A stretch of DNA of 35,161 nucleotides from Flavobacteriaceae bacterium ASP10-09a (GTDB taxonomy: Bacteria; Bacteroidota; Bacteroidia; Flavobacteriales; Flavobacteriaceae). The notes under the pieces are model-generated. The model saw nothing but the letters and a program-made list of their open reading frames with translations, searched no databases and had not been told where the DNA came from. Shown here in pieces: positions 4,068-27,887 of this stretch. Position 1 is the stretch's first letter. Every line of letters begins with the position of its first letter. The position numbers were made by a program, and so were the translations under genes. The DNA is taken from positions 462-35,622 of the forward strand of contig LAQA01000056.1 of NCBI GenBank assembly GCA_000981625.1. The letters are read 5' to 3'.

Positions 4068-5165
4068 ATGAAAAACTCTTACTTTGTCATAAAGCTAACG
4101 CTTATTTCATTACTATTTACTAATGTTGTTTCAGCCCAGTGTGATAACGTAACGGTTAATAGCCTAACGAATCCCGGACCTTTTGAAGTCAGTACGCTCA
4201 CCGAAGCAGATGGAATACGGAATGGTCCTAATTATTTAGGAGCGACCATTTACTACCCAGAAAATGCTACACCGCCCTATGCTAGTATTGCAATTGTTCC
4301 TGGATTTACAGGACTTCCTGTAACTATTCAAGAATGGGGTCCATTTTATGCATCTCACGGAATTGTAACAATTATTATAGGTACAAATTCTCTTTTTGAT
4401 TTTCCAGAGGAACGCGCTAATGCTTTGCTAGATGCATTAGAAACAATTAAACAAGAAAATACTAGAGTATCTTCTCCATTAGAAGGAGTACTTAACTTAA
4501 GTCAGTTGGCTGTGAGTGGACACTCTATGGGTGGTGGTGGAGCACAAAGGGCTGCAGTACTTGATAGCTCTATTGCTGGTGTTGTTGCCTTGTGTCCTTG
4601 GTTACCTAGTCCTGAACTTAATCATGAAAGTCCTGTGCTGATTTTTAGTGGTGAAAATGATACAGTAGCCCCTCATTCGCAACACGCAGATATTCATTAT
4701 AATACAACACCAAATACAACTGATAAATTACTATTCGAAATTGAAAACGGCGACCACTTCGTTGCCAATAGTCCTAGTGGCAGTGGCGGTTCTGTTGGTC
4801 AAATAGCACTCTCTTGGCTTAAACTTTATGTAGAAGAGAATGATTGTTATTGTACCTTATTAACTGATAACCTCTTAGTAAATCCTTCGGATACATCTAA
4901 CGTAGTGCAAAGCTTCGAATGTGAATCGTTAGGAATCGATCAACAAGAATTGGCTATTGGAGTTTATCCTAATCCAACAAAAAATACAATCAATATAAAA
5001 ATTAATGAAAACGTACACTACGAACTTTTTTCAACTTTAGGACAACGACTATTAGAAGGAGATCTAACAGGCAATAATAAACAAATTGACTTGTCTCAAT
5101 TACCTTCAAGTTTATATTACTTGTATATCGAAGGAAAAATCATTAAAATTATTAAATATGATTAA
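4068..5165 (+). CDS. Secreted PET hydrolase/cutinase-like alpha/beta hydrolase with T9SS sorting domain
   Basis: This is a predicted extracellular polyester or ester hydrolase of 365 residues. Residues 1-23 form a signal peptide (cleavage VSA/Q). Residues about 33-260 form the alpha/beta-hydrolase core, and residues about 297-365 form a Por-type T9SS C-terminal domain (VYPNPT start). The nucleophile is Ser153 in GHSMGGGG, with Asp198 in GEND and His230 in GDHF. These align at a near-constant offset with Ideonella PETase Ser160, Asp206 and His237. Phe80 and Met154 would form the oxyanion hole, and Trp178 (CPW) matches PETase Trp185. His152, Phe231 and His206 are the cutinase-like states, not the PETase-specific Trp159, Ser238 and Ser214. 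The PETase-specific second disulfide is absent. Cys262 and Cys285 could form the usual C-terminal disulfide. Bacteroidota enzymes PET27 and PET30 have the same plan. The natural substrate is unknown. Confidence 0.8.
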   Translation: MKNSYFVIKLTLISLLFTNVVSAQCDNVTVNSLTNPGPFEVSTLTEADGIRNGPNYLGATIYYPENATPPYASIAIVPGFTGLPVTIQEWGPFYASHGIVTIIIGTNSLFDFPEERANALLDALETIKQENTRVSSPLEGVLNLSQLAVSGHSMGGGGAQRAAVLDSSIAGVVALCPWLPSPELNHESPVLIFSGENDTVAPHSQHADIHYNTTPNTTDKLLFEIENGDHFVANSPSGSGGSVGQIALSWLKLYVEENDCYCTLLTDNLLVNPSDTSNVVQSFECESLGIDQQELAIGVYPNPTKNTINIKINENVHYELFSTLGQRLLEGDLTGNNKQIDLSQLPSSLYYLYIEGKIIKIIKYD

Positions 5166-5935: not shown

Positions 5936-5968
5936 TTGGATTCAAACATTTTTGTATCTTGACCTTTG
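5936..5968 (+). promoter_or_regulatory. Candidate promoter of the xdh operon, nearly abutting the start codon
   Basis: TTG (5936-5938) is followed after 22 bp by GACCTTTG (5961-5968), one mismatch from TAnnTTTG. The ATG of xdhA is only 4 bases further on, so transcription from this site would give a leaderless or almost leaderless mRNA. It may instead be chance, with the true promoter further upstream. Confidence 0.35.
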
Positions 5969-5971
5969 CAT

Positions 5972-7375
5972 ATGATACGATTTATATTAAACAATACAGA
6001 AATCAGTACTGATATTAATACCGGAATTACTTTACTTGATTTTATACGAGAATACCAGCATTTAAAAGGAACTAAAATTGGCTGTAGAGAAGGTGATTGT
6101 GGGGCTTGTACAGTCTTGGTTGGAACTTTAACTGTAAATAACACACTTCAATATCAATCAATTACTTCGTGTATTTCTCCTTTAGGAAATGCGCATGGAA
6201 AACACATTGTTTCAATAGAAGGAATTAACATTCCAAAATCGTTGACATATCCACAACAAGCAATGGCAGATAATTATGCCACACAATGTGGATTTTGTAC
6301 GCCAGGGTTTGTAGTTTCTATGACAGGTTTTGCGCTGCAACAAAATAACACATCTACCTGTAATGACGCTATTAGTGGTAATATTTGCAGATGTACTGGA
6401 TATAAATCTATTGAAAAAGCAGGGTTTGAAATTGAGAATAAACTAATACATAAAGATCAAAACCATCAAATAGATTGGCTAATTTCGAATGCTTTTATTC
6501 CAAATTATTTTAAGGATATTCCCAATAAATTAAAAGCTATTCCAATACAAAAATTTAGCTCTAAAGGAATAAAAGTAGCCAACGGAACCGATTTATTTGT
6601 TCGTTTTGCAGATCAAATGGCAACTAAAGAAATGCATTTACTAGCTCATAATAAAGTATTAAATGGCATCACTTTTAAAAGTAAAACCTGTGTTATTGGA
6701 GCAAACAGTACTGTTACCGAGATGGCAGAAAACAGTAAACTACAAACACTATTCCCTAAATTACACCAATTTTTAAAATTAGTTTCCTCAGAACAGATTC
6801 GGAATATGGGAACTTTTGGAGGAAACTTTGTGAATGCTTCTCCAATTGGAGACATGTCCATTTTCTTTTTAGCTTTGAATGCAACCATTACAATTATAGA
6901 TTCCGAAGAAAAAGAAAGAGAACTCCCATTCCAACAATTTCATATCGATTATAAAAAATATGATTTAAAAGCGAATGAAATTATCAAAAGTATTTCGTTT
7001 CCGATACAAACAAAAAACACCCACTTTAATTTTGAAAAAGTTTGTAAACGAACACATTTAGATATTGCCAGTGTAAATGCTGCAGCAAGAATTACAGTGC
7101 AAAACAATTTAATTATCGATGCACATTTCTCTATAGGCGGCGTTGCAGCTGTTCCAAAATATTTAACAAACACTAATAATTTTATACTAGGTAAAGAGTT
7201 AACGTTAGCTACAATTAAAGCTGCAGAAGAAGTATTACAATCAGAAATAACTCCGATTAGTGATGTAAGAGGTACAATTGCTTACAAGAGACTGTTAGCA
7301 AAGCAATTATTTTTCGCACATTTTATCACCTTATTTCCAACACAATTTCAACTACAAAACTTTATAAGCAAATGA
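5972..7375 (+). CDS. xdhA: Xanthine dehydrogenase small subunit (2Fe-2S / FAD)
   Basis: This is the electron-transfer subunit of a two-subunit xanthine dehydrogenase. It passes electrons from the Mo site through two 2Fe-2S clusters to FAD and NAD. Numbered from the ATG at 5972 (467 residues), Cys38, Cys43, Cys46 and Cys67 ligate the plant-ferredoxin-type cluster. Cys106, Cys109, Cys139 and Cys141 (CGFC...CRC) ligate the second. Residues about 185-460 are the FAD-binding domain with NGTDL and SSEQIRNMGTFGGN. A TTG two codons upstream was rejected because MIRFILNN is the usual beginning and the TTG lies in the probable -7 box. The gene overlaps xdhB by 4 bp (ATGA), indicating translational coupling. 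Confidence 0.93.
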   Translation: MIRFILNNTEISTDINTGITLLDFIREYQHLKGTKIGCREGDCGACTVLVGTLTVNNTLQYQSITSCISPLGNAHGKHIVSIEGINIPKSLTYPQQAMADNYATQCGFCTPGFVVSMTGFALQQNNTSTCNDAISGNICRCTGYKSIEKAGFEIENKLIHKDQNHQIDWLISNAFIPNYFKDIPNKLKAIPIQKFSSKGIKVANGTDLFVRFADQMATKEMHLLAHNKVLNGITFKSKTCVIGANSTVTEMAENSKLQTLFPKLHQFLKLVSSEQIRNMGTFGGNFVNASPIGDMSIFFLALNATITIIDSEEKERELPFQQFHIDYKKYDLKANEIIKSISFPIQTKNTHFNFEKVCKRTHLDIASVNAAARITVQNNLIIDAHFSIGGVAAVPKYLTNTNNFILGKELTLATIKAAEEVLQSEITPISDVRGTIAYKRLLAKQLFFAHFITLFPTQFQLQNFISK

Positions 7376-9624
7376 AAAATATAGACAGTTATACACATTT
7401 GCGTGGAGAATCTATTTTTGTAGATGATTTAATGATACGACAAGATGCACTTATTGGTTTGTGTTTCGATGCACCAAAAGCGAATGGAAGAATAGTACAA
7501 GTAGATTATAGCAAAGCTGAAGCTATAGAAGGCGTTGTGAGAATATTTACCTACAAAGATGTGTTAGGTGAAAATCAAATTGGAGGTATTATTCCAGATG
7601 AGCCACTTTGGGCAGAAGATGAAGTTCATTTTTGGGGACAACCCATCGCATTTATTGTAGCAACCTCAGAAGCTATCGCAAAAAAAGCACGTGTTTTAAT
7701 TGAGATAGAAATAGAAGAATTTCCTGTAATTACAACTGCTAAAGAAGCCAAAGAAAAAGGAAGTTTTATTAATGCTCCGAGATCTTTTAACCTAGGAGAC
7801 ACTAAAAGTTCTTTTAAAGATTGTGACTATGTTTTTGAAGGTGAAACTTTTTCTAACGGACAAGAACACTTGTATTTAGAAACACAAGGATGTTATGTAG
7901 AACCGAAAGAAAATGGAGATATAAAAATAACTTCGTCTACACAAGGACCAACGCAAGTTCAAAAGACTGCTGCCAAAGTTTTGGGAATCCCAATGCATAA
8001 AATTGAAGTGGATGTGACGCGTTTGGGCGGTGGATTTGGAGGAAAGGAAGATCAAGCAACACCATGGGCCGTTATGGCAGCAGTGGCAGTTCAATATTTA
8101 AACAGGCCAGTAAAGTACATTTTAAATAGACATGATGATTTAAGAATGACAGGAAAACGTCATCCATACACTTCATTCTTTAAAATTGGATTGACGAAAG
8201 ACTTAAAAATTCATGCATTTGAAGTGGAGTTTTTACAAAATTCTGGTGCTGCTGCAGATTTATCTCCTGCCATTGCAGAACGTACGTTATTCCATGCAAC
8301 CAATAGTTATTTCATTCCGAATGTTCAAACAACCGTTTATAGTTGTAAAACAAACTTACCACCGAACACCGCCTTTAGAGGTTTTGGTGGACCACAAGGT
8401 ATGTTTGTTATAGAAAGTGCTATTGCCGCTGCCGCAGACAACATGGGAATCGATAAAAGTAATATTCAGGAATGCAATTTATTAGTAGAAAATAATGAGT
8501 TTTCGTACGGTCAAATTGCGACTGAAGTTCAAGCGGTAAAAGCGTGGCAAACAGCAAAAGAAAAATTCAATTTAGAAGCGCTTCAAAAAGAAACAAACAA
8601 CTTTAATACTGTAAATTTTCAAACTAAAAAAGGAATTTCTGTGATGCCTATTGCCTTTGGAATTTCTTTTACCAATACGCCAATGAACCATGCAAGAGCC
8701 TTGATTCATATTTACCAAGATGGAAGTGTAGGTGTGAGTACTGGAGCAGTAGAAATGGGACAAAGTGTGAATACCAAAATGCTACAAGTAGCCCAAGATA
8801 TTTTGGGAATCTCTGCCGATAAATTAAAACTAGAAACAACCAATACAACTAGAGTTGCAAATACTTCTCCAACAGCCGCAAGTTCGACTGCAGACCTCAA
8901 TGGAAAAGCAGTAGAAATGGCATGTACAAATCTGATTAAAAGGTTGCAGAAGATTGCTAGCAACTTACTTTCTAAAGAACCAGAAAACATCTCTTTTAGT
9001 GAGAATTTTGTTTGGATTGATGCTAAAAAAACGACACTTACTTGGGGAGAGGTGATTGCACAAGCTATGCTAGAAAGGGTTTCTTTAAGCGAAAATGCAC
9101 ATTATGCAACTCCAATAATTAACTTTGATAAAACAAAAGAAAAAGGACATCCATTTGCGTATCACGTATACGGAACTGCAATTACATCAGTTACATTAGA
9201 TTGTTTGCATGGCACCTATGAAATTGATGCAGTACATATTATACACGATTTTGGAAAAAGCATGAATCTTGGAATTGACATTGGTCAAGTTGAAGGCGCA
9301 TTGGCACAAGGAATCGGTTGGATGACAATGGAAGAAATTGCCTACAGTTCAGATGGAAAACTGCTCTCAAATGCTTTGTCTACATATAAAGTGCCAGATA
9401 TTTTTTCTGCAGCCAAAAAAGTAACTGTATTACCATTAGAAACTGAAGGAAACTCGATGGCAATCAAAAAATCAAAAGCAGTTGGAGAACCACCTTTAAT
9501 GTATGGAATTGGAACCTATTTTGCAATTCAACATGCTGTAAAATCATTTAATAAAAATCATAAGCTACAGTTTAACGCACCTTTTACTCCTGAAAAAGTA
9601 TTAATGAGTTTATATGAAAAGTAA
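7372..9624 (+). CDS. xdhB: Xanthine dehydrogenase large, molybdopterin-binding subunit
   Basis: This is the catalytic subunit hydroxylating hypoxanthine and xanthine, 750 residues, with an aldehyde-oxidase a/b hammerhead followed by the Mo-binding domain. The residues that define purine specificity in bovine xanthine oxidase can be placed. Gln191 corresponds to Q767 (STQG), Glu226 to E802 (GGGFGGKE), Arg304 to R880 (AERTLFH), Arg336 and Phe338 to R912/F914 (FRGFGGPQG), and catalytic Glu706 to E1261 (VGEPPL). The E226-R304 spacing of 78 and E226-R336 spacing of 110 equal those of the bovine enzyme, which supports a purine hydroxylase rather than an aldehyde oxidase. It is cytosolic and needs Mo cofactor matured by XdhC. 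Confidence 0.95.
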   Translation: MKNIDSYTHLRGESIFVDDLMIRQDALIGLCFDAPKANGRIVQVDYSKAEAIEGVVRIFTYKDVLGENQIGGIIPDEPLWAEDEVHFWGQPIAFIVATSEAIAKKARVLIEIEIEEFPVITTAKEAKEKGSFINAPRSFNLGDTKSSFKDCDYVFEGETFSNGQEHLYLETQGCYVEPKENGDIKITSSTQGPTQVQKTAAKVLGIPMHKIEVDVTRLGGGFGGKEDQATPWAVMAAVAVQYLNRPVKYILNRHDDLRMTGKRHPYTSFFKIGLTKDLKIHAFEVEFLQNSGAAADLSPAIAERTLFHATNSYFIPNVQTTVYSCKTNLPPNTAFRGFGGPQGMFVIESAIAAAADNMGIDKSNIQECNLLVENNEFSYGQIATEVQAVKAWQTAKEKFNLEALQKETNNFNTVNFQTKKGISVMPIAFGISFTNTPMNHARALIHIYQDGSVGVSTGAVEMGQSVNTKMLQVAQDILGISADKLKLETTNTTRVANTSPTAASSTADLNGKAVEMACTNLIKRLQKIASNLLSKEPENISFSENFVWIDAKKTTLTWGEVIAQAMLERVSLSENAHYATPIINFDKTKEKGHPFAYHVYGTAITSVTLDCLHGTYEIDAVHIIHDFGKSMNLGIDIGQVEGALAQGIGWMTMEEIAYSSDGKLLSNALSTYKVPDIFSAAKKVTVLPLETEGNSMAIKKSKAVGEPPLMYGIGTYFAIQHAVKSFNKNHKLQFNAPFTPEKVLMSLYEK

Positions 9625-10123
9625 TTTCCGATTGAAAAACCTAAAATACACAAAATCAAACATACTAAAAGGAGCACTAATTTATAGTGTTGGTGATGCT
9701 ATTGCTGCTCTTTTATTAAACGAATTTTCTATTTACAGAACGCTCGGAATGATCCTTGTTGGCGCTACCATTTATGCGTTTGAAATTCCAAACTATTTTA
9801 CATGGATTGATAGGAAAACAGTGTCCTATCTCGGAATAAAAAAAACACTCGCTAAAACAGGTTTGGCGATTGTGTATTTTAACCCTATTTGGATTTGGAG
9901 ACATTTACTATTTATAAAAATATTTTCTGGAAATCTAGCGCAAATAAACATGAATTTATTTTTTATTGCATGTCTTTCTTTTTTAGTAAATATTCCTATT
10001 TCACTCATTGCAAATTATACTATACAAAATAAGATTAAATTAGGTTGGCGGTTTTTAGCTAGCGCAATTTTCTCAGCATTAATGGCAATATATTATGCCC
10101 TTAGTGAAACAATTTTTAATTAA
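9614..10123 (+). CDS. Small membrane protein embedded in the xdh operon
   Basis: It encodes 169 residues with four or five predicted membrane helices. The start lies 11 bp inside the end of xdhB, and the stop is 9 bp before xdhC, so it is an integral part of the operon. I cannot assign a family firmly. The sequence SVGDAIAALL...IYRTLGMILVGATIYAFEIPNYFTWID recalls the GD and RT...G...Y...D pattern of the Mpv17/PMP22 family. The size and several helices would also suit AlaE-type small exporters. A role in uptake or efflux of purines or urate, or in anchoring the enzyme, is inference from context only. Confidence 0.6.
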   Translation: MKSNFRLKNLKYTKSNILKGALIYSVGDAIAALLLNEFSIYRTLGMILVGATIYAFEIPNYFTWIDRKTVSYLGIKKTLAKTGLAIVYFNPIWIWRHLLFIKIFSGNLAQINMNLFFIACLSFLVNIPISLIANYTIQNKIKLGWRFLASAIFSALMAIYYALSETIFN

Positions 10124-10132
10124 CGTTACGCT

Positions 10133-11083
10133 ATGGAATTCTGGCAGCAACTTTTACAAAAACTACGCGCAAAACAGCACGTTTACCTCTTAACCGTTAT
10201 TCAAAATTTAGGGAGTTCTCCTGGTAGGAAAGGCTTTAAAATGTTGGTAGCCCAAGATGGATTTATTTTTGGATCTGTTGGCGGTGGTATCATGGAATTT
10301 TCGTTAGTAGAAGAAATAAAAAAACTATTGCAACAAGAAGAACAACCCATCTTTTTCAGAAAACAGCTTCACCAAGGAAACGGAAAAGATAAATCGGGTA
10401 TGATTTGCTCTGGAGAACAAACGGTGGTTTTTCATCCGTTGGATAGCACTCACATTTCATTAATAGAAGCTATTATAATCAACTTAAAAAGCAATCAACT
10501 AAAAACACTGTCCTTCTCTCCTACCAAAATTGAATTGATTGAAAAGGGGATTTCAGAGAAATATCAAGCTGTAATTACCTCAGCTCTAGATTGGAGTTTT
10601 AAAGAACTTATTGGCTTTAAAGAAACCCTATATATTATTGGAGGCGGTCATGTTGGCTTAGCGATTTCTAAATTATTTAGACAACTAAATTTTCATGTAG
10701 TTGTTTTAGATAATAGAGATCATTTAAATACACTAGAAGCAAATGATTTTGCACATAAAAAACAGGTAATTGATTATGAAGATGCTGAAAAATACATCAA
10801 ACAAGGCAATGATAGTTATGTGGCTATTATGACCAATAAATATACGGATGACAAATTAGTATTGAGTAAAATTATTAGAAATCAACACAAATTTATTGGA
10901 GTTTTAGGAAGCAAGGCTAAACTAAAAACCATGTGGGAAGTATTGCAAAAAGAGGGTTTTTCTTTAGAAGAGTTGAACCAAATACATGCACCTATTGGAT
11001 TGTCTATTAAAAGTCAGACTCCCGAAGAAATTGCAGTGAGTGTAGCTGCAGAAATTATTAGGGTTAAGAATGAACTGTTATAA
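10133..11083 (+). CDS. xdhC: Xanthine dehydrogenase maturation factor XdhC (XdhC/CoxI family)
   Basis: It binds molybdenum cofactor, promotes its sulfuration and inserts it into XdhB. The protein has 316 residues in two parts. The N-terminal XdhC/CoxI domain has VIQNLGSSPGRKGFKMLV and GSVGGGIME. The C-terminal Rossmann-like domain starts with YIIGGGHVGLAISKLF and continues with VVLDNRD and GVLGSKAK, ending with the usual PIGLSI...PEEIAVSVAAEI. This organisation matches the family throughout. It lies directly after the small membrane protein and closes the xdh operon. No separate MocA-type cytidylyltransferase is present in the window. Confidence 0.92.
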   Translation: MEFWQQLLQKLRAKQHVYLLTVIQNLGSSPGRKGFKMLVAQDGFIFGSVGGGIMEFSLVEEIKKLLQQEEQPIFFRKQLHQGNGKDKSGMICSGEQTVVFHPLDSTHISLIEAIIINLKSNQLKTLSFSPTKIELIEKGISEKYQAVITSALDWSFKELIGFKETLYIIGGGHVGLAISKLFRQLNFHVVVLDNRDHLNTLEANDFAHKKQVIDYEDAEKYIKQGNDSYVAIMTNKYTDDKLVLSKIIRNQHKFIGVLGSKAKLKTMWEVLQKEGFSLEELNQIHAPIGLSIKSQTPEEIAVSVAAEIIRVKNELL

Positions 11084-11114
11084 TTAATACTATGCTAAAA
11101 CCAAACACCAATAA

Positions 11115-11573
11115 ATGATTAAACGGCTACAGAATAATGACATAGAAATATCTAATAAAATACGTGCAGTTTTTCAAGTATCGTATAAAGTAGAAGCAAA
11201 ATTATTGAAGGCCACTGATTTCCCCCCATTAAAAAGACCTCTCGAAGATTATGTGATTAGTAAAAACACCTTCTTCGGATACTTAAAAGATAAAGAACTC
11301 GTTGGAGTAATTGAAATTAATCGGAACAATAGCTATACACTTATTAGAAGTTTAGTGGTAGACCCACTTTTTTTTAGACAAGGAATCGCAAGAAAATTAA
11401 TGGAATTTACTCTTAAAACATTTGATTCAAATTTGTTTGTTGTTGAAACGGGATTAGAAAATGAACCAGCTTCAAAGTTATACAAGAAATTTGGTTTTAT
11501 AGAAGTTAAACAATGGAATACTGACCACGGAATTAGAAAAATAAAATTTGAGAAGAAAATAATTAACTCATAA
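11115..11573 (+). CDS. GNAT-family N-acetyltransferase
   Basis: It encodes 152 residues with the GNAT fold. The acetyl-CoA-binding motif A is VVDPLFFRQGIARKLM (Q-x-x-G-I-A), preceded by strand YTLIRSL. Motif B follows near NEPASKLYKKFGFIEV, the usual ending in which the Tyr acts as general acid. The acceptor substrate cannot be deduced. It begins 31 bp after xdhC and could be a read-through member of that operon, but nothing links it to purines. Its stop codon overlaps the start of a decayed gene. Confidence 0.8.
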   Translation: MIKRLQNNDIEISNKIRAVFQVSYKVEAKLLKATDFPPLKRPLEDYVISKNTFFGYLKDKELVGVIEINRNNSYTLIRSLVVDPLFFRQGIARKLMEFTLKTFDSNLFVVETGLENEPASKLYKKFGFIEVKQWNTDHGIRKIKFEKKIINS

Positions 11574-11972
11574 AAAAGAATAGACTAATTTCATTTATAT
11601 CTATTTTAATATTAGGAATGAGTTCAATAATTATACCGGTCTTTTTCATCGATGATTTAAAACATTATGACTCTCCTTTATTTCCTTTAACTAGAACTGG
11701 AATCGAAGAAGTATCTAGACATAGCATACCTTTTCTGTTTTTTCAGGTCTTATAGTTAAATTATTTAATAATGTGTCCTCCTGGAAAATTGTATTAATGA
11801 GCATGTTACTATTTCCTTTAGCTACTATCGTAAAATAATAGTCGATTCTTCTTCATACAATATGTTCTTATAGAATTTTCATTTTATGGGTTTTTATACA
11901 ATTCCAGTAATAATTAGAACATATCTATCTCAACTTTCCAAAAAATTTATTCTTAAAAGAAAAACACTTTAA
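11570..11972 (+). pseudogene. Decayed small membrane-protein gene
   Basis: Three successive frames read as one hydrophobic protein of about 134 residues. Frame one (from 11573) gives KNRLISFISILILGMSS and on to HSIPFLFFQ, then a stop at 11753. Frame two (from 11746) gives GLIVKLFNNVSSWKIVLMSM and LLFPLATIVK, then TAA at 11836. Frame three (from 11838) gives IVDSSSYNMFL, a TAG at 11871, then FMGFYTIPVII...SQLSKKFILKRKTL and a TAA at 11970-11972. The first shift lies by a run of six T. The expected ATG reads ATA, overlapping the stop of the acetyltransferase gene. Two shifts, one nonsense codon and a lost start together argue for true decay rather than one sequencing error. The family is unknown. 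Confidence 0.65.
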
Positions 11973-12372
11973 CAGAAGGTGATAATTAAATAAAGTAATT
12001 CTTAGAGAGGGCATTTTTGAGTTAAAGAAAAGATATTGTTATATGGAAAATAATTGATGAAAGATATAATTATTTAAAGATATTTACTGTCTAAATTTAT
12101 TAGACTTATAGTTTAATTAATGAAAATATAAGCACAAATAATCTACTCCCTTTCATTTACCAACACGTTATCTTTAGATAGAAAAAGGAAGCTCCCTTCA
12201 ATAACTTAATTCTAAAACTCTTATTCCAATCATAATTTTACACCCTAGCCTAATTAATATTAATTTCTTATATTTGGATAGGGTATTTTTAGAATTTATC
12301 AAAAAATTGATTAAAATTTAACGATATTCTTATTTTTTTTAGAAATTTTTAACAATTTAAACAATCAACTTG
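11973..12372 (+). other. AT-rich intergenic region upstream of the pyrimidine cluster
   Basis: About 400 bp with no supportable gene. TATATTTG at 12269-12276 is an exact -7 box, but no convincing TTG lies at the right distance. It would give a leader of roughly 90 bases for the dehydrogenase gene. The box is flanked by ACCCTA (12242-12247) and TAGGGT (12279-12284), a short inverted repeat that could be an operator or chance. Confidence 0.35.
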
Positions 12373-13842
12373 ATGATGCCTGTACGTAAAAATATTTCTG
12401 AGGTAAAGAATTATATAAATGGTAGATTCGAAAGAAAGAACCAAAATTCTATGGATGTTTTTAGTCCTATTGATGGTTTTAAAATTTCAACAATTCCTTT
12501 GTCAACAAGAGAAGATTTAGATGCTGCTGTTTTGGCAGCTAAAAATGCTTTTCCTTCTTGGTCTCGAATGACCTTTAAAGAACGTGTTCAAATATTTTTC
12601 AGGTATAGAAATTTATTAGAACAACATATGGACGAGTTAACAAAGTTAGTTCAACTTGAAAATGGAAAACTTTATGGTGAAGCGAAAGCTGAGGTTGAAA
12701 AGAGTATGGAACTGTGTGAATTTGCAGTTTCTATGCCACAAATTGTTGTGAATGAAATTCAAGAAGTAAGTAAAGGGGTGGAATGTAGAACTGAAAGAAA
12801 ACCACTTGGAGTAGTTGCTTCTATTACACCTTTTAATTTTCCTAATATGGTTCCTCATTGGACACTTCCAAATGCTTTAGTGCTAGGGAACACAATGGTA
12901 ATGAAACCATCAGAACTTGTACCATTGAGTACTGTTCGTATGGCTGAACTACTTAAGGAAGCTGGCCTCCCAGACGGAGTTTTTAATATTGTAAATGGAG
13001 GAAAAGATGTTGTTGAGGCGATATGCGACCATCCTGACATTAAAGCAGTTTCTTTTGTTGGATCAACTAAAGTTGCGAAAATTGTTTATAAGAGGGCAAC
13101 TTCTACTTTAAAACGTTGTGTTGCTTTAGGAGGAGCAAAAAATCATTTACTAGTCTTGCCAGATGCAAACCCTAAAATGACGGCTTCAAATGTTGTTGCT
13201 TCAATGTCAGGTTGTGCAGGACAGAGATGTATGGCAGCTTCAGTAATGGTTGGAATTGATAAGGTCCAACATATTATTGACCTTATGGTTGAAGCTGCAA
13301 AAGAAATTGTTCCAGGTGATAATTTAGGATCTGTTATAACTGCTGAATCCAAAGAAAGGATCGAAAGTTATATTACTGAAGCTGAAAATGATGGAGCGAT
13401 AATTTTATTGGATGGTAGAAATACTTCAGTAAATGGAAAAGAAGGAGGTTATTATGTTGGACCAACTATTATAGATTATGTAACTATAGATATGTCTGTA
13501 GCAAGAGAAGAAATATTTGGGCCTGTAATTTCAATTATTCGCGCTAAAGATTTAGATGAAGCAATTGAAATTGAGAATGGATCTAATTATGGAAATGCAG
13601 CTGCTGTATTTACACAAAGTGGTGGACTAGCCAAACAAGTCATGGAACGTGCAAGTGCAGGAATGATTGGAGTAAATATTGGTGTTCCCGTTCCTAGAGA
13701 ACCTTTTTCTTTTGGAGGATGGAATGAATCTAAATTTGGGGTTGGAGACATAACTGGAAGAAGTTCTATTGAATTTTGGACTCAAAATAAGAAGACGACT
13801 ACCAAATGGAATCCAGAAGCACAAACGAATTGGATGAGTTAA
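12373..13842 (+). CDS. mmsA: CoA-acylating (methyl)malonate-semialdehyde dehydrogenase
   Basis: It oxidises malonate semialdehyde to acetyl-CoA (and methylmalonate semialdehyde to propionyl-CoA) with NAD and CoA, the last step of uracil and thymine breakdown. It spans about 490 residues of the aldehyde dehydrogenase fold. Signature elements are TPFNFP (oxyanion Asn), the MMSDH-typical LGGAKNHL in place of the ELGGK-type glutamate motif, and catalytic Cys in SGCAGQRCMA, near residue 287. Two adjacent ATGs (12373 and 12376) are possible starts, and a TTG before them is less likely. Standing first in a co-directional set with an aminotransferase and the pyrimidine genes, its probable task is handling beta-alanine-derived malonate semialdehyde. 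The gene symbol follows family use. Confidence 0.9.
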   Translation: MMPVRKNISEVKNYINGRFERKNQNSMDVFSPIDGFKISTIPLSTREDLDAAVLAAKNAFPSWSRMTFKERVQIFFRYRNLLEQHMDELTKLVQLENGKLYGEAKAEVEKSMELCEFAVSMPQIVVNEIQEVSKGVECRTERKPLGVVASITPFNFPNMVPHWTLPNALVLGNTMVMKPSELVPLSTVRMAELLKEAGLPDGVFNIVNGGKDVVEAICDHPDIKAVSFVGSTKVAKIVYKRATSTLKRCVALGGAKNHLLVLPDANPKMTASNVVASMSGCAGQRCMAASVMVGIDKVQHIIDLMVEAAKEIVPGDNLGSVITAESKERIESYITEAENDGAIILLDGRNTSVNGKEGGYYVGPTIIDYVTIDMSVAREEIFGPVISIIRAKDLDEAIEIENGSNYGNAAAVFTQSGGLAKQVMERASAGMIGVNIGVPVPREPFSFGGWNESKFGVGDITGRSSIEFWTQNKKTTTKWNPEAQTNWMS

Positions 13843-13940
13843 GTATACACAAAATTTTAATAATTAATTATTCCAAAATTAATGATTTGATTATCAATAA
13901 ATTGAGCTCATTTTTTTTTAATTACAATTATTTCAGATGA

Positions 13941-15275
13941 ATGAACAAACAACAAATAATAAAAGATAACCTCGACTACACACTTTTTTCGTGGGGAAAA
14001 CAAGGAGGATTAAATCCCATAAATGTTTCTCACGCTAAAGGATCTTATTTTTATGATAGAGATGGTAAAAAGTACTTAGATTTCTCGTCTCAGTTAATGA
14101 ACGTCAATATTGGTCATGGAAATCAACGTATTACTGAGGCTGTTACAAAGCAGATGAAAGAAATGAGTTATGCATATCCTGGAATGGCAACTGATATTCG
14201 TGGAAAATTAGGAAAAAAAATTTCAGAAATTACTCCTGGAAATTTAACTAAAAGTTTTTTTACACTTGGGGGTGCTGAAGCGATAGAAAATGCTATTAAA
14301 TTAGCTAGAATATATACAGGGCGACATAAAGTTATAGCACAGTATAGAGCCTATCATGGTGCTACAAATGGGGCAATCTCAGTTGGAGGGGACCCCAGAA
14401 AGTTTGCTGTAGATAGTAATGCGATGCCTAATATAGTGCATGTTGAAAACCCTTATGCGTATCGTTGTCCTTGGAGTTCTTCATCCATAGAAGAATGTGG
14501 TGAACGTGCTTTTGCAAATTTAGAACGCATTGTAAAATTAGAGAATCCAGAGAGTGTTGCGGCTATATTACTTGAGGGAGAATCAGGATCTTCAGGATGT
14601 ATTAAATATCCACCGATGTATTTAAAGAAAGTACGAAAACTATGTGACAGGTATGGAATTTTATTTATAGATGATGAAACGATGAGTGGTTTTGGTCGCA
14701 CAGGAAAGATGTTTGGTATAAACCATCATGGGGTAGCGCCAGATATTATGGTTATGGCAAAAGGATTAACCTCTGGCTATTTACCACTAGGTGCAGCTGT
14801 GGTTACTGATAAAATTGCAGAATATTTTAACGAGAATCCTATGGTTATTGGCTTGACTTATTCTGCGCATCCAACGCTATGTGCTGCCGCATTAGAAAAT
14901 ATAAAAATTATTGAAGAGGATAATTTAGTCAAACGAGCGTCAGAAATGGGTATATATATTGAATCAGAAGTAGAAAAATTAAAAGTAAAACATCCATCAA
15001 TTGGTGATTTTAGAAATACCGGTTTATTAGGTTGTATCGAGTTGGTGAAAAATAGAAAAACAAAAGAGCCAACAACACCTTGGAATGCGAAGCAACATGA
15101 AATGGAAGCAACATTAAGAATGGCTGCAAAAGTAAGAGAATTAGGAATGTTCACATTTGTAAGATGGAACTGGATCTTTATTGCACCACCACTAAACGTA
15201 AGCAAAGAAGAGGTAGATGAAGGGCTGAAAATTATTTCCAAAGTAATTGCTATTGCTGATGAGTATTGTTATTAA
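13941..15275 (+). CDS. Class III PLP aminotransferase, probably beta-alanine transaminase
   Basis: It encodes 444 residues of the omega-aminotransferase family. PLP-site features are GGAEAIENAIKLAR (phosphate binding), the AYHG turn at about 137-140, Asp245 in IDDETMSGFGRTG (pyridine nitrogen) and Lys274 in VMAKGLTSGYLPLGA (Schiff base). Overall it resembles taurine/beta-alanine:pyruvate transaminases. Placed between the semialdehyde dehydrogenase and the pyrimidine enzymes, it most likely converts beta-alanine to malonate semialdehyde. It could also accept 3-aminoisobutyrate from thymine. Taurine is a possible alternative substrate and cannot be excluded from sequence. The transporter gene follows after 13 bp. 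Confidence 0.88.
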   Translation: MNKQQIIKDNLDYTLFSWGKQGGLNPINVSHAKGSYFYDRDGKKYLDFSSQLMNVNIGHGNQRITEAVTKQMKEMSYAYPGMATDIRGKLGKKISEITPGNLTKSFFTLGGAEAIENAIKLARIYTGRHKVIAQYRAYHGATNGAISVGGDPRKFAVDSNAMPNIVHVENPYAYRCPWSSSSIEECGERAFANLERIVKLENPESVAAILLEGESGSSGCIKYPPMYLKKVRKLCDRYGILFIDDETMSGFGRTGKMFGINHHGVAPDIMVMAKGLTSGYLPLGAAVVTDKIAEYFNENPMVIGLTYSAHPTLCAAALENIKIIEEDNLVKRASEMGIYIESEVEKLKVKHPSIGDFRNTGLLGCIELVKNRKTKEPTTPWNAKQHEMEATLRMAAKVRELGMFTFVRWNWIFIAPPLNVSKEEVDEGLKIISKVIAIADEYCY

Positions 15276-15288
15276 AGAATAAAACGCT

Positions 15289-16977
15289 ATGAATAAAGAC
15301 ATCGTAAAATTACAAGAAGATATTTCTAGCTCACCACTATACAGTGAAGACTTAGCACCAGTTCCTGCAAATAAAAGAACTTGGAGTAAATGGCATTTAG
15401 CAGCTATTTGGGTTGGAATGGCTGTTTGCATTCCAACATATTTATTGGCATCTTATATGATTAAAACAGGATTAAATTGGTATGAAGCGTTGATTATTAT
15501 TGGTCTTGCCAATTTAATTATTACAGTACCAATGGTTTTAAATGGTCATGCAGGTGTAAAATACGGCATTCCATTTCCTGTAATTGGACGCGCTGCATTT
15601 GGAACAAAAGGAGTTCATTTGGCTTCTGTGACTAGAGGTATTATTGCCTGCGGATGGTTTGGAGTTCAAACTTGGATTGGTGGACTGGCTATCTATGCAA
15701 TTTTTAATGCAGTTACTGGAACAGATGGTGAATTAGGCTTGTCGATTGGTAAATTTATTGGTTTTGGCATCTTTTGGATTATCAATATGTATTTTATTTG
15801 GAAGGGAACTGAAAGTATCAAATGGCTAGAAACCTACTCCGCCCCTATTTTAATTATAATGGGAGTCGCCTTGATCTATTGGAGTTATGCAAAAGCAGAT
15901 GGGTTCTCGATTGTATTAAATCAAAGCGTACAGTTAGAAAAAACAGCAGCATCAATTACTAAAAAAGGAGATGTATTTTATCTAAATTTAAATGCTTTAA
16001 AAAATAAAGAAGGCGACCTAAAAGCTTTAGAATATACTATTATTTCAGATAAGAATAGTATTTGGAAAGCATATACAAGTGAACCTATTTTAATTTCTAA
16101 TACTGAGAATATTCAAGTGCAATTTAGAAATGATGAAATAGCATCAAGCATTGTAAATGCAAATGTAATAAGTCCAGAAAGTGGTTCTGATAGCAAGCTT
16201 TGGAGCTACTTATTATGGCTTACAGCAATGGTAGGTTTTTGGGCAACCATGTCCATCAGTATTGCCGATATCACTAGGTATGCATCCACTCAAAAAGATC
16301 AAATAGCAGGGCAGTTTATTGGGTTACCCGCCACAATGATGTTGTATTCATTTGTAGGAATATTTGTAACATGTGCAGCCGTTATTAATTTTGAAGATAT
16401 TTTAATTGCTGACGATGCACCTTGGGATCCAGTTTCACTTATTTCGAAGTTTAAGAATCCAATGGTCGTAATTGTCGCACAAATTTTTATGTTGATAGCG
16501 ACTTTAAGTACCAATATTGCAGCGAATGTAATTGCGCCATCCAATGCATTTTCTAATCTGTGGCCTAAAAAAATAAGTTTTAGAACTGGAGGAATGATTA
16601 CTGGAGTTTTAGGAATTTTAATTATGCCTTGGTGGTTGTTAAATGAAATTTCAGGCTTTTTAATTTTTGTAAGTGGATTATTAGGCCCTGTACTTGGTAT
16701 TTTAATTGCAGATTATTATTTAGTCAGAAAAAAGAAATTAGAATTAGCAGAATTATATAAAGAAGATGGAATCTATTCTTATGGAAAAACTGGATTTAAT
16801 AAAGCCGCAATGATTGCATTATTTTTCGGAGTATTTGTTGCATTAATTGGGTATTGGGTTCCTGCATTGAACTTTTTATATTCCTTATCTTGGTTTACTG
16901 GATTCATCATTTCGTTTGTATTATATGTTTTATTAATGAAAAAGAATAGTACAATACTTATAACTAAAAACTCATAA
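15289..16977 (+). CDS. NCS1-family nucleobase/hydantoin-type transporter with an extra soluble insertion
   Basis: This Na+- or H+-coupled inner-membrane importer is probably for uracil, thymine, dihydropyrimidine or allantoin-like bases. It aligns with Mhp1 over most of its length. Trp123 and Gln127 (CGWFGVQTW) match Mhp1 W117 and Q121, Trp318 matches W220, and Asn413 in STNIAAN matches N318, all substrate-site residues. At 562 residues it is longer than the usual 450-500. The excess is a hydrophilic block at about 212-300, between helices 5 and 6. The block ends in a strand pattern (WKAYTSEPILIS...IQVQFRND...VNANV) that recalls FN3-like/CHB_HEX-type beta-sandwiches. The next gene starts 6 bp after the stop. 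Confidence 0.9.
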   Translation: MNKDIVKLQEDISSSPLYSEDLAPVPANKRTWSKWHLAAIWVGMAVCIPTYLLASYMIKTGLNWYEALIIIGLANLIITVPMVLNGHAGVKYGIPFPVIGRAAFGTKGVHLASVTRGIIACGWFGVQTWIGGLAIYAIFNAVTGTDGELGLSIGKFIGFGIFWIINMYFIWKGTESIKWLETYSAPILIIMGVALIYWSYAKADGFSIVLNQSVQLEKTAASITKKGDVFYLNLNALKNKEGDLKALEYTIISDKNSIWKAYTSEPILISNTENIQVQFRNDEIASSIVNANVISPESGSDSKLWSYLLWLTAMVGFWATMSISIADITRYASTQKDQIAGQFIGLPATMMLYSFVGIFVTCAAVINFEDILIADDAPWDPVSLISKFKNPMVVIVAQIFMLIATLSTNIAANVIAPSNAFSNLWPKKISFRTGGMITGVLGILIMPWWLLNEISGFLIFVSGLLGPVLGILIADYYLVRKKKLELAELYKEDGIYSYGKTGFNKAAMIALFFGVFVALIGYWVPALNFLYSLSWFTGFIISFVLYVLLMKKNSTILITKNS

Positions 16978-16983
16978 TTATAT

Positions 16984-18369
16984 ATGTCTATACTCATAAA
17001 AAACGGTCAAGTAGTTACTGCGTCAGAAACTTATATAGCAGATATATTTATTGAAGGTGAACAAATTATCGCTATTGGTAAAGATTTAAAGTACCAAGCT
17101 GATAAAATAATTGATGCTTCAGGTAAGTTAGTTTTTCCGGGCGGAATTGATCCACATGTGCATTTAGATATGCCTTTTATGGGAACGTATTCAAGTGACG
17201 ATTACGAAACTGGAACACGAGCAGCATTACATGGAGGAACGACAATGGTCATCGATTTTATTTTACAGATACAAGGTGACACGCTCCATAATGCATTAAA
17301 AACTTGGCAAGGAAAAGCACAAGGAAAAGCGATTGGAGATTATTCTTATCATATGGCAGTTACCGATTTTAACGATGATGTAGCCAAAGAAGTTATTCAA
17401 ATGATAGAAGAAGAAGGAATATCTTCCTTTAAAACATTTATGGCTTATAAAGGAGCCTTGATGATTGATGATGGGCAAATGATTCAATTAATGAAAATCG
17501 TTAAGAAATATGGTGGTTTGGTCACCGTTCATGCTACTAATGGTGATATGATTGATTCGTTAATTTCAAAAAACAAAGCAGAAGGAAATATGTCACCTCT
17601 ATATCATTATTTATCTCAACCTGAAGTAACTGAATCAGAAGCGTCAAGTCGTTTTGCAGATATGTTAGAGTACACAGGATGTCCAGGGTATATTGTGCAT
17701 ATGACTTGTGAAGGGGCATTGAATGCTGTAAGAAAATCAACACAACGTAATCAAAAAATATTTGTAGAAACGTGTCCACAATATTTAATATTAGACGCTT
17801 CATTGTATGAAAATAATTTTGAAGGTGCTAAGTGGGTGATGAGTCCGCCATTAAGAGAAAAGAAAGATCAAACAGCATTATGGGCTGGTATAAATCAAGG
17901 CTTAATACAAGTTGTTGGTACAGACCATTGTCCGTTTATGTGGGAACAAAAATTAATGGGGAAAGATGATTTTTCTAAAATTCCAAATGGACACCCAGCG
18001 ATAGAACATCGAATGGAATTATTATATTCAGAAGGGGTTCATAAAGGGAAAATTTCATTAACAAAATATGTTGAAGTAAGTTCTACAAATGCTGCAAAAA
18101 TATTCGGAATGTATCCTAGAAAAGGTACAATTGCGATTGGAAGTGATGCAGACATTGTGATTTTTGATCCTAAGAAAGAACATACTATTTCTGTTGATAC
18201 ACATCATATGAACTGTGATTATTCAGGTTATGAAGGACGAAAAGTTACTGGAAAGACAGAAACTGTAATTCTACGAGGACAAGTAGCTATAGAAAATGAA
18301 GAATGCCATTTAAAAGCAGGTCATGGACAGTTTATTAAAAGAGAAAAAATATCAAAAATAGTGATTTAG
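16984..18369 (+). CDS. hydA: Dihydropyrimidinase
   Basis: It opens the ring of dihydrouracil or dihydrothymine to N-carbamoyl-beta-alanine or its methyl derivative, in the cytosol. It has 461 residues, normal for the cyclic amidohydrolase family. All six binuclear metal ligands can be placed: His58 and His60 (DPHVHLD), carboxylated Lys156 (FMAYKG), His183 (VHATNGD), His239 (YIVHMTCEGAL) and Asp314 (GTDHCPF). SPPLR (about 287-291) and NGHPAIEHRM contribute to the substrate site. The residue after VHA is Thr, where many family members have Glu. It lies between transporter and amidase genes of the same pathway. Hydantoinase activity is an expected side reaction of the family. Confidence 0.93.
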   Translation: MSILIKNGQVVTASETYIADIFIEGEQIIAIGKDLKYQADKIIDASGKLVFPGGIDPHVHLDMPFMGTYSSDDYETGTRAALHGGTTMVIDFILQIQGDTLHNALKTWQGKAQGKAIGDYSYHMAVTDFNDDVAKEVIQMIEEEGISSFKTFMAYKGALMIDDGQMIQLMKIVKKYGGLVTVHATNGDMIDSLISKNKAEGNMSPLYHYLSQPEVTESEASSRFADMLEYTGCPGYIVHMTCEGALNAVRKSTQRNQKIFVETCPQYLILDASLYENNFEGAKWVMSPPLREKKDQTALWAGINQGLIQVVGTDHCPFMWEQKLMGKDDFSKIPNGHPAIEHRMELLYSEGVHKGKISLTKYVEVSSTNAAKIFGMYPRKGTIAIGSDADIVIFDPKKEHTISVDTHHMNCDYSGYEGRKVTGKTETVILRGQVAIENEECHLKAGHGQFIKREKISKIVI

Positions 18370-18382
18370 AAAAGCATAACCT

Positions 18383-18442
18383 CTCGACTGCGCTCGAGGG
18401 GACAAAAATAAAATAATATCAGGTCGAGCGCAGTCCAGACCT
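18383..18442 (+). repeat. Paired GC-rich extragenic palindromes
   Basis: Two GC-rich units stand out in an AT-rich gap. CTCGACTGCGCTCGAG (18383-18398) is a hairpin by itself, and AGGTCGAGCGCAGTCCAGACCT-type sequence (18421-18442) has AGGTC/GACCT arms. The cores GACTGCGCTCGA (18386-18397) and TCGAGCGCAGTC (18424-18435) are perfect reverse complements, so they could also pair across a 26-base loop. It resembles the short dispersed palindromes that I recall from other flavobacterial genomes. It splits the cluster inside the presumed transcript. Confidence 0.65.
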
Positions 18443-18459
18443 AATAAAAATAAAAGATT

Positions 18460-19326
18460 ATGCCAAGAATTGTAAAATCAGGATTGATACAAATGAGTCT
18501 TCCAATGACGGAAGGTGAAGGAACTATTAAAGAAATTATGGATGCAATGTACGATAAGCACATTCCATACATAGAAGAAGCAGGAAGACAAGGAGTGCAG
18601 ATATTGTGTTTACAAGAAATATTTAATACACCCTATTTCTGTCCAGGACAAGATCGTAAATGGTACGCATCTGCAGAGTCTGTTCCTGGACCTACTACTG
18701 AGAAAATGCAAGTATTGGCAAAGAAGCATGATATGGTAATCATCGTACCAATTTATGAAAGAGAACAAGCTGGCGTCTATTATAATACCGCAGCAGTTAT
18801 TGATGCAGATGGAACGTATTTAGGAAAATATCGTAAAAATCATATTCCACATACAACAGGGTTTTGGGAAAAATTCTTTTTCAAACCAGGCAACTTAGGC
18901 TATCCTGTTTTTCAAACAAAATATGCTAAAGTGGGTGTTTACATTTGTTATGATAGACATTTTCCAGATGGAGCAAGAGCATTAGGATTAAATGGAGCTG
19001 AAATTGTTTACAACCCTTCTGCAACTGTTGCAGGATTGAGCGAATATTTATGGAAACTAGAGCAACCTGCACATGCTGCAGCCAATGGCTATTTTATGGG
19101 TTGTATTAATCGTGTTGGAGAAGAAAAACCTTGGAATCTAGGTAAGTTTTATGGGCAATCTTATTTTGTAAATCCAAGAGGACAAATATTTTCAGAAGCT
19201 TCTCGAGATGATGATGAATTATTAGTAGCTGATTTTGACTTAGACCTTATTGAAGAAGTGCGTTCTACTTGGCAATTCTTTAGAGATAGACGTCCAGAAA
19301 CCTATGGGAAATTAACAGAGTTGTAA
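18460..19326 (+). CDS. Beta-ureidopropionase (N-carbamoyl-beta-alanine amidohydrolase), nitrilase superfamily
   Basis: It hydrolyses N-carbamoyl-beta-alanine to beta-alanine, CO2 and ammonia. The 288-residue protein has the carbon-nitrogen hydrolase triad Glu53 (LQEIF), Lys126 (KYRKNHIP) and Cys163 (VYICYDRHFPDG). A Glu-rich region around 140 has GFWEKFFFKPGN, the usual linker around the nitrilase second glutamate. The neighbours (dihydropyrimidinase before, PreT/PreA after) specify the substrate. N-carbamoylputrescine amidase is the nearest alternative, with a similar length and the same triad. The 90-bp gap before it contains a pair of palindromes. Confidence 0.9.
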   Translation: MPRIVKSGLIQMSLPMTEGEGTIKEIMDAMYDKHIPYIEEAGRQGVQILCLQEIFNTPYFCPGQDRKWYASAESVPGPTTEKMQVLAKKHDMVIIVPIYEREQAGVYYNTAAVIDADGTYLGKYRKNHIPHTTGFWEKFFFKPGNLGYPVFQTKYAKVGVYICYDRHFPDGARALGLNGAEIVYNPSATVAGLSEYLWKLEQPAHAAANGYFMGCINRVGEEKPWNLGKFYGQSYFVNPRGQIFSEASRDDDELLVADFDLDLIEEVRSTWQFFRDRRPETYGKLTEL

Positions 19327-19339
19327 ATTATTAATAATA

Positions 19340-19394
19340 AATTATGAGTTGCTTTTTTATATTTCTCATAGTTGAAAACCCAACACTCATAATT
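19340..19394 (+). repeat. Inverted repeat in the gap before preT
   Basis: AATTATGAGTTG (19340-19351) pairs with CAACACTCATAATT (19381-19394), leaving a two-base bulge and a loop of about 29 bases. It fills most of the 75-bp gap between amidase and preT. There is no T-run after it, so it is more likely an mRNA-stability structure or an operator than a terminator. Confidence 0.35.
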
Positions 19395-19401
19395 CTAAAA
19401 T

Positions 19402-20724
19402 ATGGCAGAATATAAAAAACCAAAAACCGAAGCAGAGTTCGAGAATAATTTTAAACAGAAAAATCCTCTAATGAATGATACCGAAGCCTATTATGAGGCT
19501 TCACGTTGTTTATTTTGTTATGATGCACCTTGTATTCAAGCGTGTCCGACAAGTATAGATATTCCGTTATTTATTAAACAAATACATACAGATAATATCA
19601 CGGGAGCCTCAAAAACTATTTTTGAATCTAATTGGTTAGGAAATGCTTGTGGAATTGTTTGTCCAACTGGAGTTTTATGTGAGGGTGCATGTGTATATAA
19701 CCATCAAGATGTGCCACCAATTAAAATTGGACGCTTACAGAATTATGCAACTAATAAAACGATAGATGCTGGTAAAGTAATTTTTAAAGTTGGAGAAAGT
19801 AACGGTAAGAAAATTGCCATTATTGGTGCAGGACCTGCAGGAATTGCTTGTGCTTGTGAAGCTAGAACTTTAGGATATGAAGTTGATCTATTTGAAGCCA
19901 AAGAAAAGCCTTCTGGTTTAACTGTATATGGTATTGCTCCCTATAAAATTACAAATGAAGAAGTTTTGAAAGAAGTTGAATATCTTCAAAATCAATTAGA
20001 TTTTAATATTAAGTACAAAGCAACTATCAATTCTAAAGCAGCATTAAAAAGTTTAGAAGATGATTATGACGCTATATTCATTGGCGTTGGTTTAGGAAAA
20101 ACTAGAAATTTAGAACTGGAAGGAGAAGAAAAAGAGAATGTAATTGGTGCCGTTGAATTTGTAGAAGAATTGAGAATGAAACATCACAAGTTAGCTGTCC
20201 CTAAAAAAGTGGTCATCCTTGGAGGAGGAAATACCGCGATGGATGCAGCTTCTGAAGCTGCAAGAATGGGCGCAAAAAAAACGGTGTTGGCATATCGAAA
20301 TTCTAAAGAAAAAATGGGTGCTTATAGATTTGAATATGATTTAGCGATAAGTGCTGGGGTTGATAGTTTATTCAATGTAACTCCAATTGCAATCACGGGA
20401 AACGGAAAAGTGGAAGGAGTGAAATTTGCTAAAACAGAAATGGTAGATGGGAAACTAAAAACCAACATGAATAACACCTTCATTGTAAGATGTGATATGG
20501 TCATTAAAGCAACAGGACAAGCTAAGCAAGGACATTTATATGGTTTAATTGATGATTTAGAAATTGACACAAAAAAAAGAATTAAAACAAATGATGAATT
20601 TCAAACATCAAACCCAATGTATTTTGCTGGGGGTGATGCAATAAACGGAGGTGCAGAAGTTGTAAATGCAGCTTATGACGGAAAAATGGCAGCGCAAGGA
20701 ATTCATAATTGGTTAAACAAATAA
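19402..20724 (+). CDS. preT: NAD(P)-dependent dihydropyrimidine dehydrogenase subunit PreT
   Basis: This is the electron-input subunit that oxidises NAD(P)H through FAD and FeS centres and feeds PreA to reduce uracil or thymine. It has 440 residues. The N-terminal double FeS domain has Cys36, Cys39, Cys44 and Cys48 (CLFCYDAPCIQACP) and Cys83, Cys87, Cys93 and Cys97. The FAD-binding motif is IIGAGPAGIACACEA at about 140, and the second dinucleotide motif is VVILGGGNTAMDAASEAARMG at about 273. A GDAINGGAEVVNA stretch ends the FAD domain. Glutamate synthase small subunits share this fold, but the adjacent preA (9 bp away) settles the identity. Confidence 0.93.
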   Translation: MAEYKKPKTEAEFENNFKQKNPLMNDTEAYYEASRCLFCYDAPCIQACPTSIDIPLFIKQIHTDNITGASKTIFESNWLGNACGIVCPTGVLCEGACVYNHQDVPPIKIGRLQNYATNKTIDAGKVIFKVGESNGKKIAIIGAGPAGIACACEARTLGYEVDLFEAKEKPSGLTVYGIAPYKITNEEVLKEVEYLQNQLDFNIKYKATINSKAALKSLEDDYDAIFIGVGLGKTRNLELEGEEKENVIGAVEFVEELRMKHHKLAVPKKVVILGGGNTAMDAASEAARMGAKKTVLAYRNSKEKMGAYRFEYDLAISAGVDSLFNVTPIAITGNGKVEGVKFAKTEMVDGKLKTNMNNTFIVRCDMVIKATGQAKQGHLYGLIDDLEIDTKKRIKTNDEFQTSNPMYFAGGDAINGGAEVVNAAYDGKMAAQGIHNWLNK

Positions 20725-20733
20725 TACAAAAAC

Positions 20734-27832: not shown

Positions 27833-27887
27833 TATTACACTTTAACAAGACCATCCATAATTGAGTTGTTTTCAAATACTAAGAAAA

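Follow-up and report, generated by a model that had tools for sequence, protein, structure and literature searches.

A T9SS-tailed probable esterase of the PET30/PET27 family with a rare His152/Phe231 pocket pair in a Flavobacteriaceae genome

The closest described relatives of the enzyme discussed here are PET27 of Aequorivita sp. CIP111184 and PET30 of Kaistella jeonii (PDB 7PZJ, WP_039353427). According to the sections of PMC8767016 on which we draw, both are promiscuous esterases that prefer pNP-C8 and C6 substrates and cleave PCL, Impranil and BHET, and PET weakly. IsPETase exceeded PET27/PET30 in activity by factors of 4.7 and up to 253, and the authors do not regard the two as PET esterases in the strict sense. 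Two further family members, PET28 and PET29, hydrolyse BHET but show no activity on PET (PMC8767016, Table 1). The crystal structure of PET30 is described in the same source; the enzyme has one disulfide, and its signal peptide is cleaved at 23-24 (PMC8767016, Table 3). For IsPETase, a review reports that S238F and W159H drastically affected activity (Joo et al.; this reads as single changes, which is left unstated there), that Austin et al. saw an increased product release from PET film with the S238F/W159H double mutant, and that W159H and S214H are among the changes in the ten-fold mutant DuraPETase (PMC8540959, as far as covered). His in place of Trp159, together with Glu for Ala89, is called harmful in the covered part of PMC12224614, and S214H is reported to lower IsPETase activity (PMC10080609, covered in part).

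The window, that is the whole analysed stretch of 35,161 nucleotides, carries a gene at 4068-5165 (Table 1) whose product is very probably a T9SS-exported serine esterase of the PET30/PET27 family. Its likely substrates are esters of short or medium chain length and aliphatic polyesters; PET would be a weak side substrate at most. The protein is an ordinary member of this family with an instructive pocket: its unusual part is the His152/Phe231 pair, present in 6 of 229 family rows, as compared to the IsPETase-like Trp/Ser of 196.

Table 1. Coordinates of the gene, its domains and its pocket residues in the window
Feature	Position	Strand	Basis or remark
PET30-family alpha/beta hydrolase, predicted T9SS export	4068..5165	+	365 aa, ORF intact; homology, domain profiles
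Sec signal peptide, residues 1-23	4068..4136	+	by inspection; cleavage before Gln24 by PET30 analogy
Catalytic domain, PF12740, residues 29-268	4152..4871	+	Pfam profile
Phe80, aromatic clamp	4305..4307	+	alignment; IsPETase has Tyr
His152 (codon CAC), catalytic Ser153, Met154 (oxyanion)	4521..4529	+	His152 = Trp159 in IsPETase
Trp178	4599..4601	+	Trp185 in IsPETase; Tyr in PET30, Trp in PET27
Catalytic Asp198	4659..4661	+	present in 229/229 family rows
His206 and His210	4683..4697	+	IsPETase Ser214/Ile218; LCC His/Phe
Catalytic His230, Phe231 (codon TTC)	4755..4760	+	Phe231 = Ser238 in IsPETase
Cys262 ... Cys285	4851..4922	+	numbers match the single PET30 disulfide
T9SS type A C-terminal sorting domain, residues 299-358	4962..5141	+	PF18962 and TIGR04183

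Family membership and predicted export

The initial annotation had called the protein a PET hydrolase-like enzyme, and the profile search bears this out: PF12740 ("PETase") matches at 180.5 bits (E 5.3e-53; curated cut-off 28 bits) and the sorting domain PF18962 at E 7.3e-10, both far beyond chance. The NCBIfam profiles agree with the Pfam architecture, with TIGR04183 scoring 33.9 bits over a cut-off of 23; the BHET hydrolase equivalog NF051441 stays at 137.3 bits, under its cut-off of 520. Among PDB sequences PET30 itself scores best (7pzj_A, 505.7 bits), and the match spans the whole protein with its sorting tail. The two are 61.2% identical overall and 73.8% identical over residues 29-265. 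For P0147, a gapless match of 364 aa from the PET27 strain, the corresponding values are 65.9% and 77.6%, and for P0191 of Aequorivita viscosa (365 aa, taken as PET28) identity is 61.8%. P0147 was equated with PET27 (WP_111881932) by strain and length, not by accession, using the strain and length data for PET27 and PET28 in section 6 of PMC8767016. The PDB match, these pairwise identities and two trees uphold the proposed kinship with PET27 and PET30, with which the protein shares full-length homology and tail, the Ser-His-Asp triad, a Phe-Met-(Trp/Tyr) motif and the lack of a second disulfide.

One could argue that this is a dienelactone hydrolase (DLH) or a generic lipase misnamed by homology, since relatives are called "dienelactone hydrolase", "lipase" or "pimeloyl-ACP methyl ester carboxylesterase" in several sources, and four of the sampled relatives (P0130, P0133, P0148, P0173) carry a precomputed DLH domain (PF01738) beside PF12740. 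However, the better match to DLH or platelet-activating-factor acetylhydrolase families that would have spoken against a PETase did not appear: the Pfam search of the 4068-5165 protein returned neither at E<=1e-3, against the strong PF12740 match, and the PDB matches listed (60 of 181) are mostly polyester hydrolases and cutinases. We consider a misnamed enzyme very improbable and retain the PET30/PET27-family esterase.

The suggestion that this is a small group did not survive the searches, which returned 927 protein clusters at E<=1e-10 for the 4068-5165 protein (P0001) and 1046 for an Aequorivita relative. The best 120 of each were sampled (213 different proteins), so that the sample leans to near relatives; together with genomic loci and PET30 they gave an alignment of 229 non-identical family rows. 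Ser153, His230 and Gly195 are, like Asp198, invariant (229/229 each), followed by Cys260 (228/229), Cys262 (227/229), His210 (226/229) and His206 (215/229). Among 19 further loci, several of which repeat earlier ones and two of which gave an identical ORF, His210 is found in 19/19, one row (genome G305) has Ala195 and two rows have Phe262. That genome holds two tandem family copies (L062/L065, G305:C35:27833-30226) with 50-51% identity to the 4068-5165 protein, of which one was read as Tyr152, Trp80 and Ala195. A 45% identical relative elsewhere (L040/L050, G092:C1:97051-98001) has an internal TAG stop and is perhaps a pseudogene.

Routing through the type IX secretion system, as first suggested from the tail, agrees with the genome: the tail scores over the TIGR04183/PF18962 cut-off as in T9SS type A cargo, the two components that were looked for, SprA and GldM, are present (2422 and 436 bits), and there are 27 TIGR04183 matches genome-wide, 26 of them over the cut-off. 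The protein would thus be exported via Sec, would cross the outer membrane by T9SS with loss of the sorting tail, and would then be displayed on the surface or released. Outside the cell the triad of Ser153, His230 and Asp198 would act on esters of short to medium chain length and probably also on soft aliphatic polyesters or on cutin-like/lipid esters.

The active site compared with named enzymes

The near-gapless alignment to IsPETase that had been claimed is a fair description (BLASTP: 35% identity, 7 gap positions in 248 columns), and Phe80, His152, Ser153, Met154, Trp178, Asp198, His206, His210, His230 and Phe231 are each read directly at the positions first given. The two enzymes share the triad, the Met and the W-loop Trp. 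The features of IsPETase proper are replaced: Trp159/Ser238 by His152/Phe231, Ser214/Ile218 by His206/His210 and the cysteines of its specific second disulfide by Gly195/Val232, in accordance with the earlier remark that the extra disulfide is missing; unlike IsPETase, the protein also carries a T9SS tail. The description of His152 and Phe231 as cutinase-like is confirmed by LCC, which has His/Phe at the same positions. LCC and the cutinase-type PET hydrolases also share His at 206, whereas LCC (about 40% identity) has Phe in place of His210 and lacks the tail.

PET30 resembles the protein much more closely, having the same fold by homology, the triad at the same residue numbers, Phe80, Met154, His206, His210, Gly195, Cys262/Cys285 (the numbers of its one disulfide, PMC8767016) and a T9SS tail; it differs by Trp, Tyr, Thr and Ser where the 4068-5165 protein has His152, Trp178, Val200 and Phe231. 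PET27, read as P0147, is alike in the Phe-Met-Trp motif, His206/His210 and the tail, and unlike in its Trp152/Ser231. The binding motif of PET30 itself is given as Phe-Met-Trp in one source (PMC13188925 Table 2, 2026) and as Phe-Met-Tyr in another (PMC8767016, 2022); the 7pzj sequence has Tyr178. Judging from the alignment to the PET30 crystal structure, triad and aromatic residues would line one shared cleft, in which His152 and Phe231 would make subsite II cutinase-like, in contrast to the Trp/Ser of most of the family. As the pocket is unlike those of PET30, P0147 and P0191, the substrate range of these enzymes may not carry over.

His210 had been called unusual. This stands against IsPETase (Ile) and against LCC, Ple629, Ple628 and MG8 (Phe), and fails inside the protein's own family, where its near invariance, like that of Gly195, makes His210 and the missing second disulfide family traits; His210 is a signature of the PET30/PET27 family and not an oddity of this protein. 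A metal site at His206/His210 is not supported: Zn, Ni or Co raise the activity of PET30 by up to threefold, but PET27 is little affected by metals (PMC8767016, in the part covered) despite the same two histidines in P0147.

We regard esterase activity of the protein as very probable and measurable PET hydrolysis as somewhat short of an even chance. A stronger proposal would be that the enzyme is a true PET hydrolase in use, with His152/Phe231 as an adaptation that improves the cleavage of PET or another aromatic polyester. The double mutant of Austin et al. and the Phe-Met-Trp motif, shared with PET27 as the better of the two active relatives (PMC8767016), speak for it. Against it stand the PET-inactive PET28 and PET29, the drastic effects of S238F and W159H in the hands of Joo et al., the harm ascribed to His at Trp159, and His206, which corresponds to the S214H change by which IsPETase loses activity; moreover, His/Phe is a cutinase state as well, as in LCC. 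The M5-PETase tail, DxDxR(Y)xxFxC (PMC12224614), is also missing: searched as D.D.R[any]..F.C, it finds no match in the 4068-5165 protein, which reads ENDCYCTLLTDN at that place, nor in any of the 229 family rows, while IsPETase matches and four other outgroup rows are too short to tell. In the covered part of that study Flavobacteriales fall mainly into the motif clades M2-M4 and none of the M1-M4 enzymes tested, whichever of them were flavobacterial, had PET activity. This rule is contradicted by PET27 and PET30: since PET30 and P0147 are without M5, while PET27 and PET30 are active, M5 is not necessary. Nor does the host genome hold an MHETase-family match over the cut-off (one Tannase/MHETase match, 19.6 bits against 29.8), which is weak evidence because the genome is 75.5% complete. 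Together with the shared old locus described below, these points make a PET hydrolase in use unlikely, and we keep to an esterase with PET as a side substrate at most.

Rarity, coupling and origin of the 152/231 pair

Across the 229 family rows position 152 is Trp in 210, His in 10, Met in 8 and Tyr in 1, and position 231 is Ser in 200, Phe in 14, Tyr in 10 and others in 5. Besides Trp/Ser and His/Phe the pairs are Trp/Tyr (10), Met/Phe (8), His/Ser (4) and the rest (5). Phe231 occurs in 0/210 rows with Trp152 and in 14/19 rows without it, a contrast whose Fisher value ignores kinship. Independent pairs were counted on two trees. In a FastTree tree of 234 rows including outgroups, from which the pocket columns had been removed, on average 5.6 pairs pointed the same way, 0 pointed the other way and 3.4 showed no difference (median p 0.031). 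The corresponding averages for a careful LG+G4 tree, built from 87 of these rows, were 4.8, 0 and 2.2 (median p 0.06). Changes at 152 number ten on the first tree and eight on the second, a recombination-free history being assumed. Trp152/Phe231 is absent from the 19 further loci too, among which L061, L063 and L064 carry His/Ser. As a general rule the coupling fails: MG8 (PDB 9vzr), a named PET hydrolase from another family, combines Trp152 with Phe231. Within the PET30/PET27 family the pattern would fit an interaction between positions 152 and 231, without proving one. In the parts of the literature covered, we found no report of a natural His/Phe state in the PET30/PET27 family.

In the careful tree the 4068-5165 protein groups with P0005 (Trp/Tyr; support 87/94) and P0002 (His/Phe) with P0003 (Trp/Tyr; 100/99), all four lying inside a seven-row clade (100/99). 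P0002 and P0003 are close in N-terminus and tail; they part at most positions from 77 to 88 and also at 152, 231 and 237, and at these sites P0002 has the residues of the 4068-5165 protein. A mosaic test gave a permutation p of 2e-4 for P0002 and of 3.5e-4 for the 4068-5165 protein against P0002/P0005, both at the protein level, where rate differences between domains can inflate the result; against P0002/P0004 it gave nothing for the latter (p 0.26 and 0.86). The likeness of P0002 to the 4068-5165 protein reflects either an exchange of pocket segments, in whichever direction, or repeated selection. A family-wide protein triplet scan (624,997 triplets, 75 under the Bonferroni threshold) was set aside because many top rows contrast the catalytic domain with signal peptide and tail, whose rates differ.

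Evidence for mosaicism from DNA comes from outside the lineage of the 4068-5165 gene only. By synonymous codons alone (block-wise dS), the ends of L011 are L015-like and its codons 100-242 L013-like (89 informative synonymous codons, 0/20,000 shuffles). Its downstream neighbours alternate in identity to L013 and L015 as well, so that the flanks are also mosaic, which points to general recombination or to a strain chimera of metagenome assembly and not to a gene-specific device. Between L013 and L015, codons 181-245 show 22 nonsynonymous to 22 synonymous changes against 7:43 in codons 61-180 (Fisher p 2.7e-4), with the bounds of this pocket half chosen post hoc, once the blocks had been seen; the excess is not significant between L008 and L011 (p 0.24). 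L020 and P0066 differ at 4 of 365 residues, including His (L020) versus Trp at 152; codon 152 of L020 (8001-9095) is CAT, three bases from TGG.

It could be that the pocket of this marine family switches between a PETase-like state, Trp152/Ser231, and a cutinase-like one, (His or Met152)/Phe231, as a linked unit, through epistasis and spread between lineages by homologous recombination, and that in the 4068-5165 gene nature has arrived at what was engineered as W159H/S238F. We put this forward tentatively and think it rather less probable than its negation.

Genomic setting and distribution

The host is a marine bacterium of the Bacteroidota, and its genome (2.37 Mb in 71 contigs) has one copy of the gene, six other matches being sorting tails. 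With the own genome counted, the gene is found in at least 9/146 genomes of the genus (at least 5/110 of good quality) and at least 2/59 near-relative genomes at E<=1e-40, and in at least 15/397 genomes and 12/237 genera of the host's family at E<=1e-60; these are lower bounds because not every first-look candidate was scored in each genome. The family is large, yet sparsely spread among the genomes of the host's family.

We see no functional gene neighbourhood: when the 16 window ORFs of the first 17 kb were compared with L001-L020 and L031, only the esterase gene had a counterpart (>30% identity, half of the length). The neighbours give no hint of the substrate: upstream are two DoxX-like proteins and others that match no Pfam family, and downstream genes for xanthine dehydrogenase and pyrimidine catabolism. 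The region 5966-22062 holds xanthine dehydrogenase genes and an XdhC-type maturation factor, then an apparently complete reductive pyrimidine degradation cluster with an NCS1 transporter, dihydropyrimidinase, carbamoyl amidase, aminotransferase, semialdehyde dehydrogenase and, by inspection only, a two-subunit dihydropyrimidine dehydrogenase. The NCS1-type permease profiles match about residues 19-214 and 298-550 of the product of 15289-16977; the roughly 85 uncovered residues between them may be an inserted domain in a membrane transporter. Further on, 25619-29978 encodes a tandem pair of large secreted proteins that resemble each other and have T9SS tails; by inspection they look like endonuclease I combined with fibronectin-type repeats.

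In several relatives the locus itself is shared. In L010, L012, L013, L015 and L016 the gene stands immediately after one and the same large ORF (polA in the L012 copy), two ORFs lie between them in L008, and rplM-rpsI-rpsB (named from the L012 copies) stand downstream in L008, L012, L015, L016 and L011, the last of which has a different upstream side. The 4068-5165 copy sits elsewhere, beside a 5-FCL/xdh block and at a synteny break to the congener G032, which keeps this block (65-88% identity), has other genes on the esterase-gene side and gives no match to the 4068-5165 protein. The shared position in records titled Polaribacter, Patiriisocius and Ulvibacter suggests that the locus is older than plastics, and by far older than PET; transfer of the whole region is a possible alternative source of this shared position.

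The label "PETase" in marine flavobacteria stands for a large family whose origin probably predates plastics. Within it, the pocket of a natural enzyme bears both cutinase-type residues once engineered together into the Ideonella enzyme, and as His/Phe occurs on the same scaffold in the 4068-5165 protein and five sampled relatives, the effect of the pair is testable on natural enzymes. We would predict that Trp152 with Phe231, the combination seen in 0/229 family rows, is poor on this scaffold, though MG8 has it on another.
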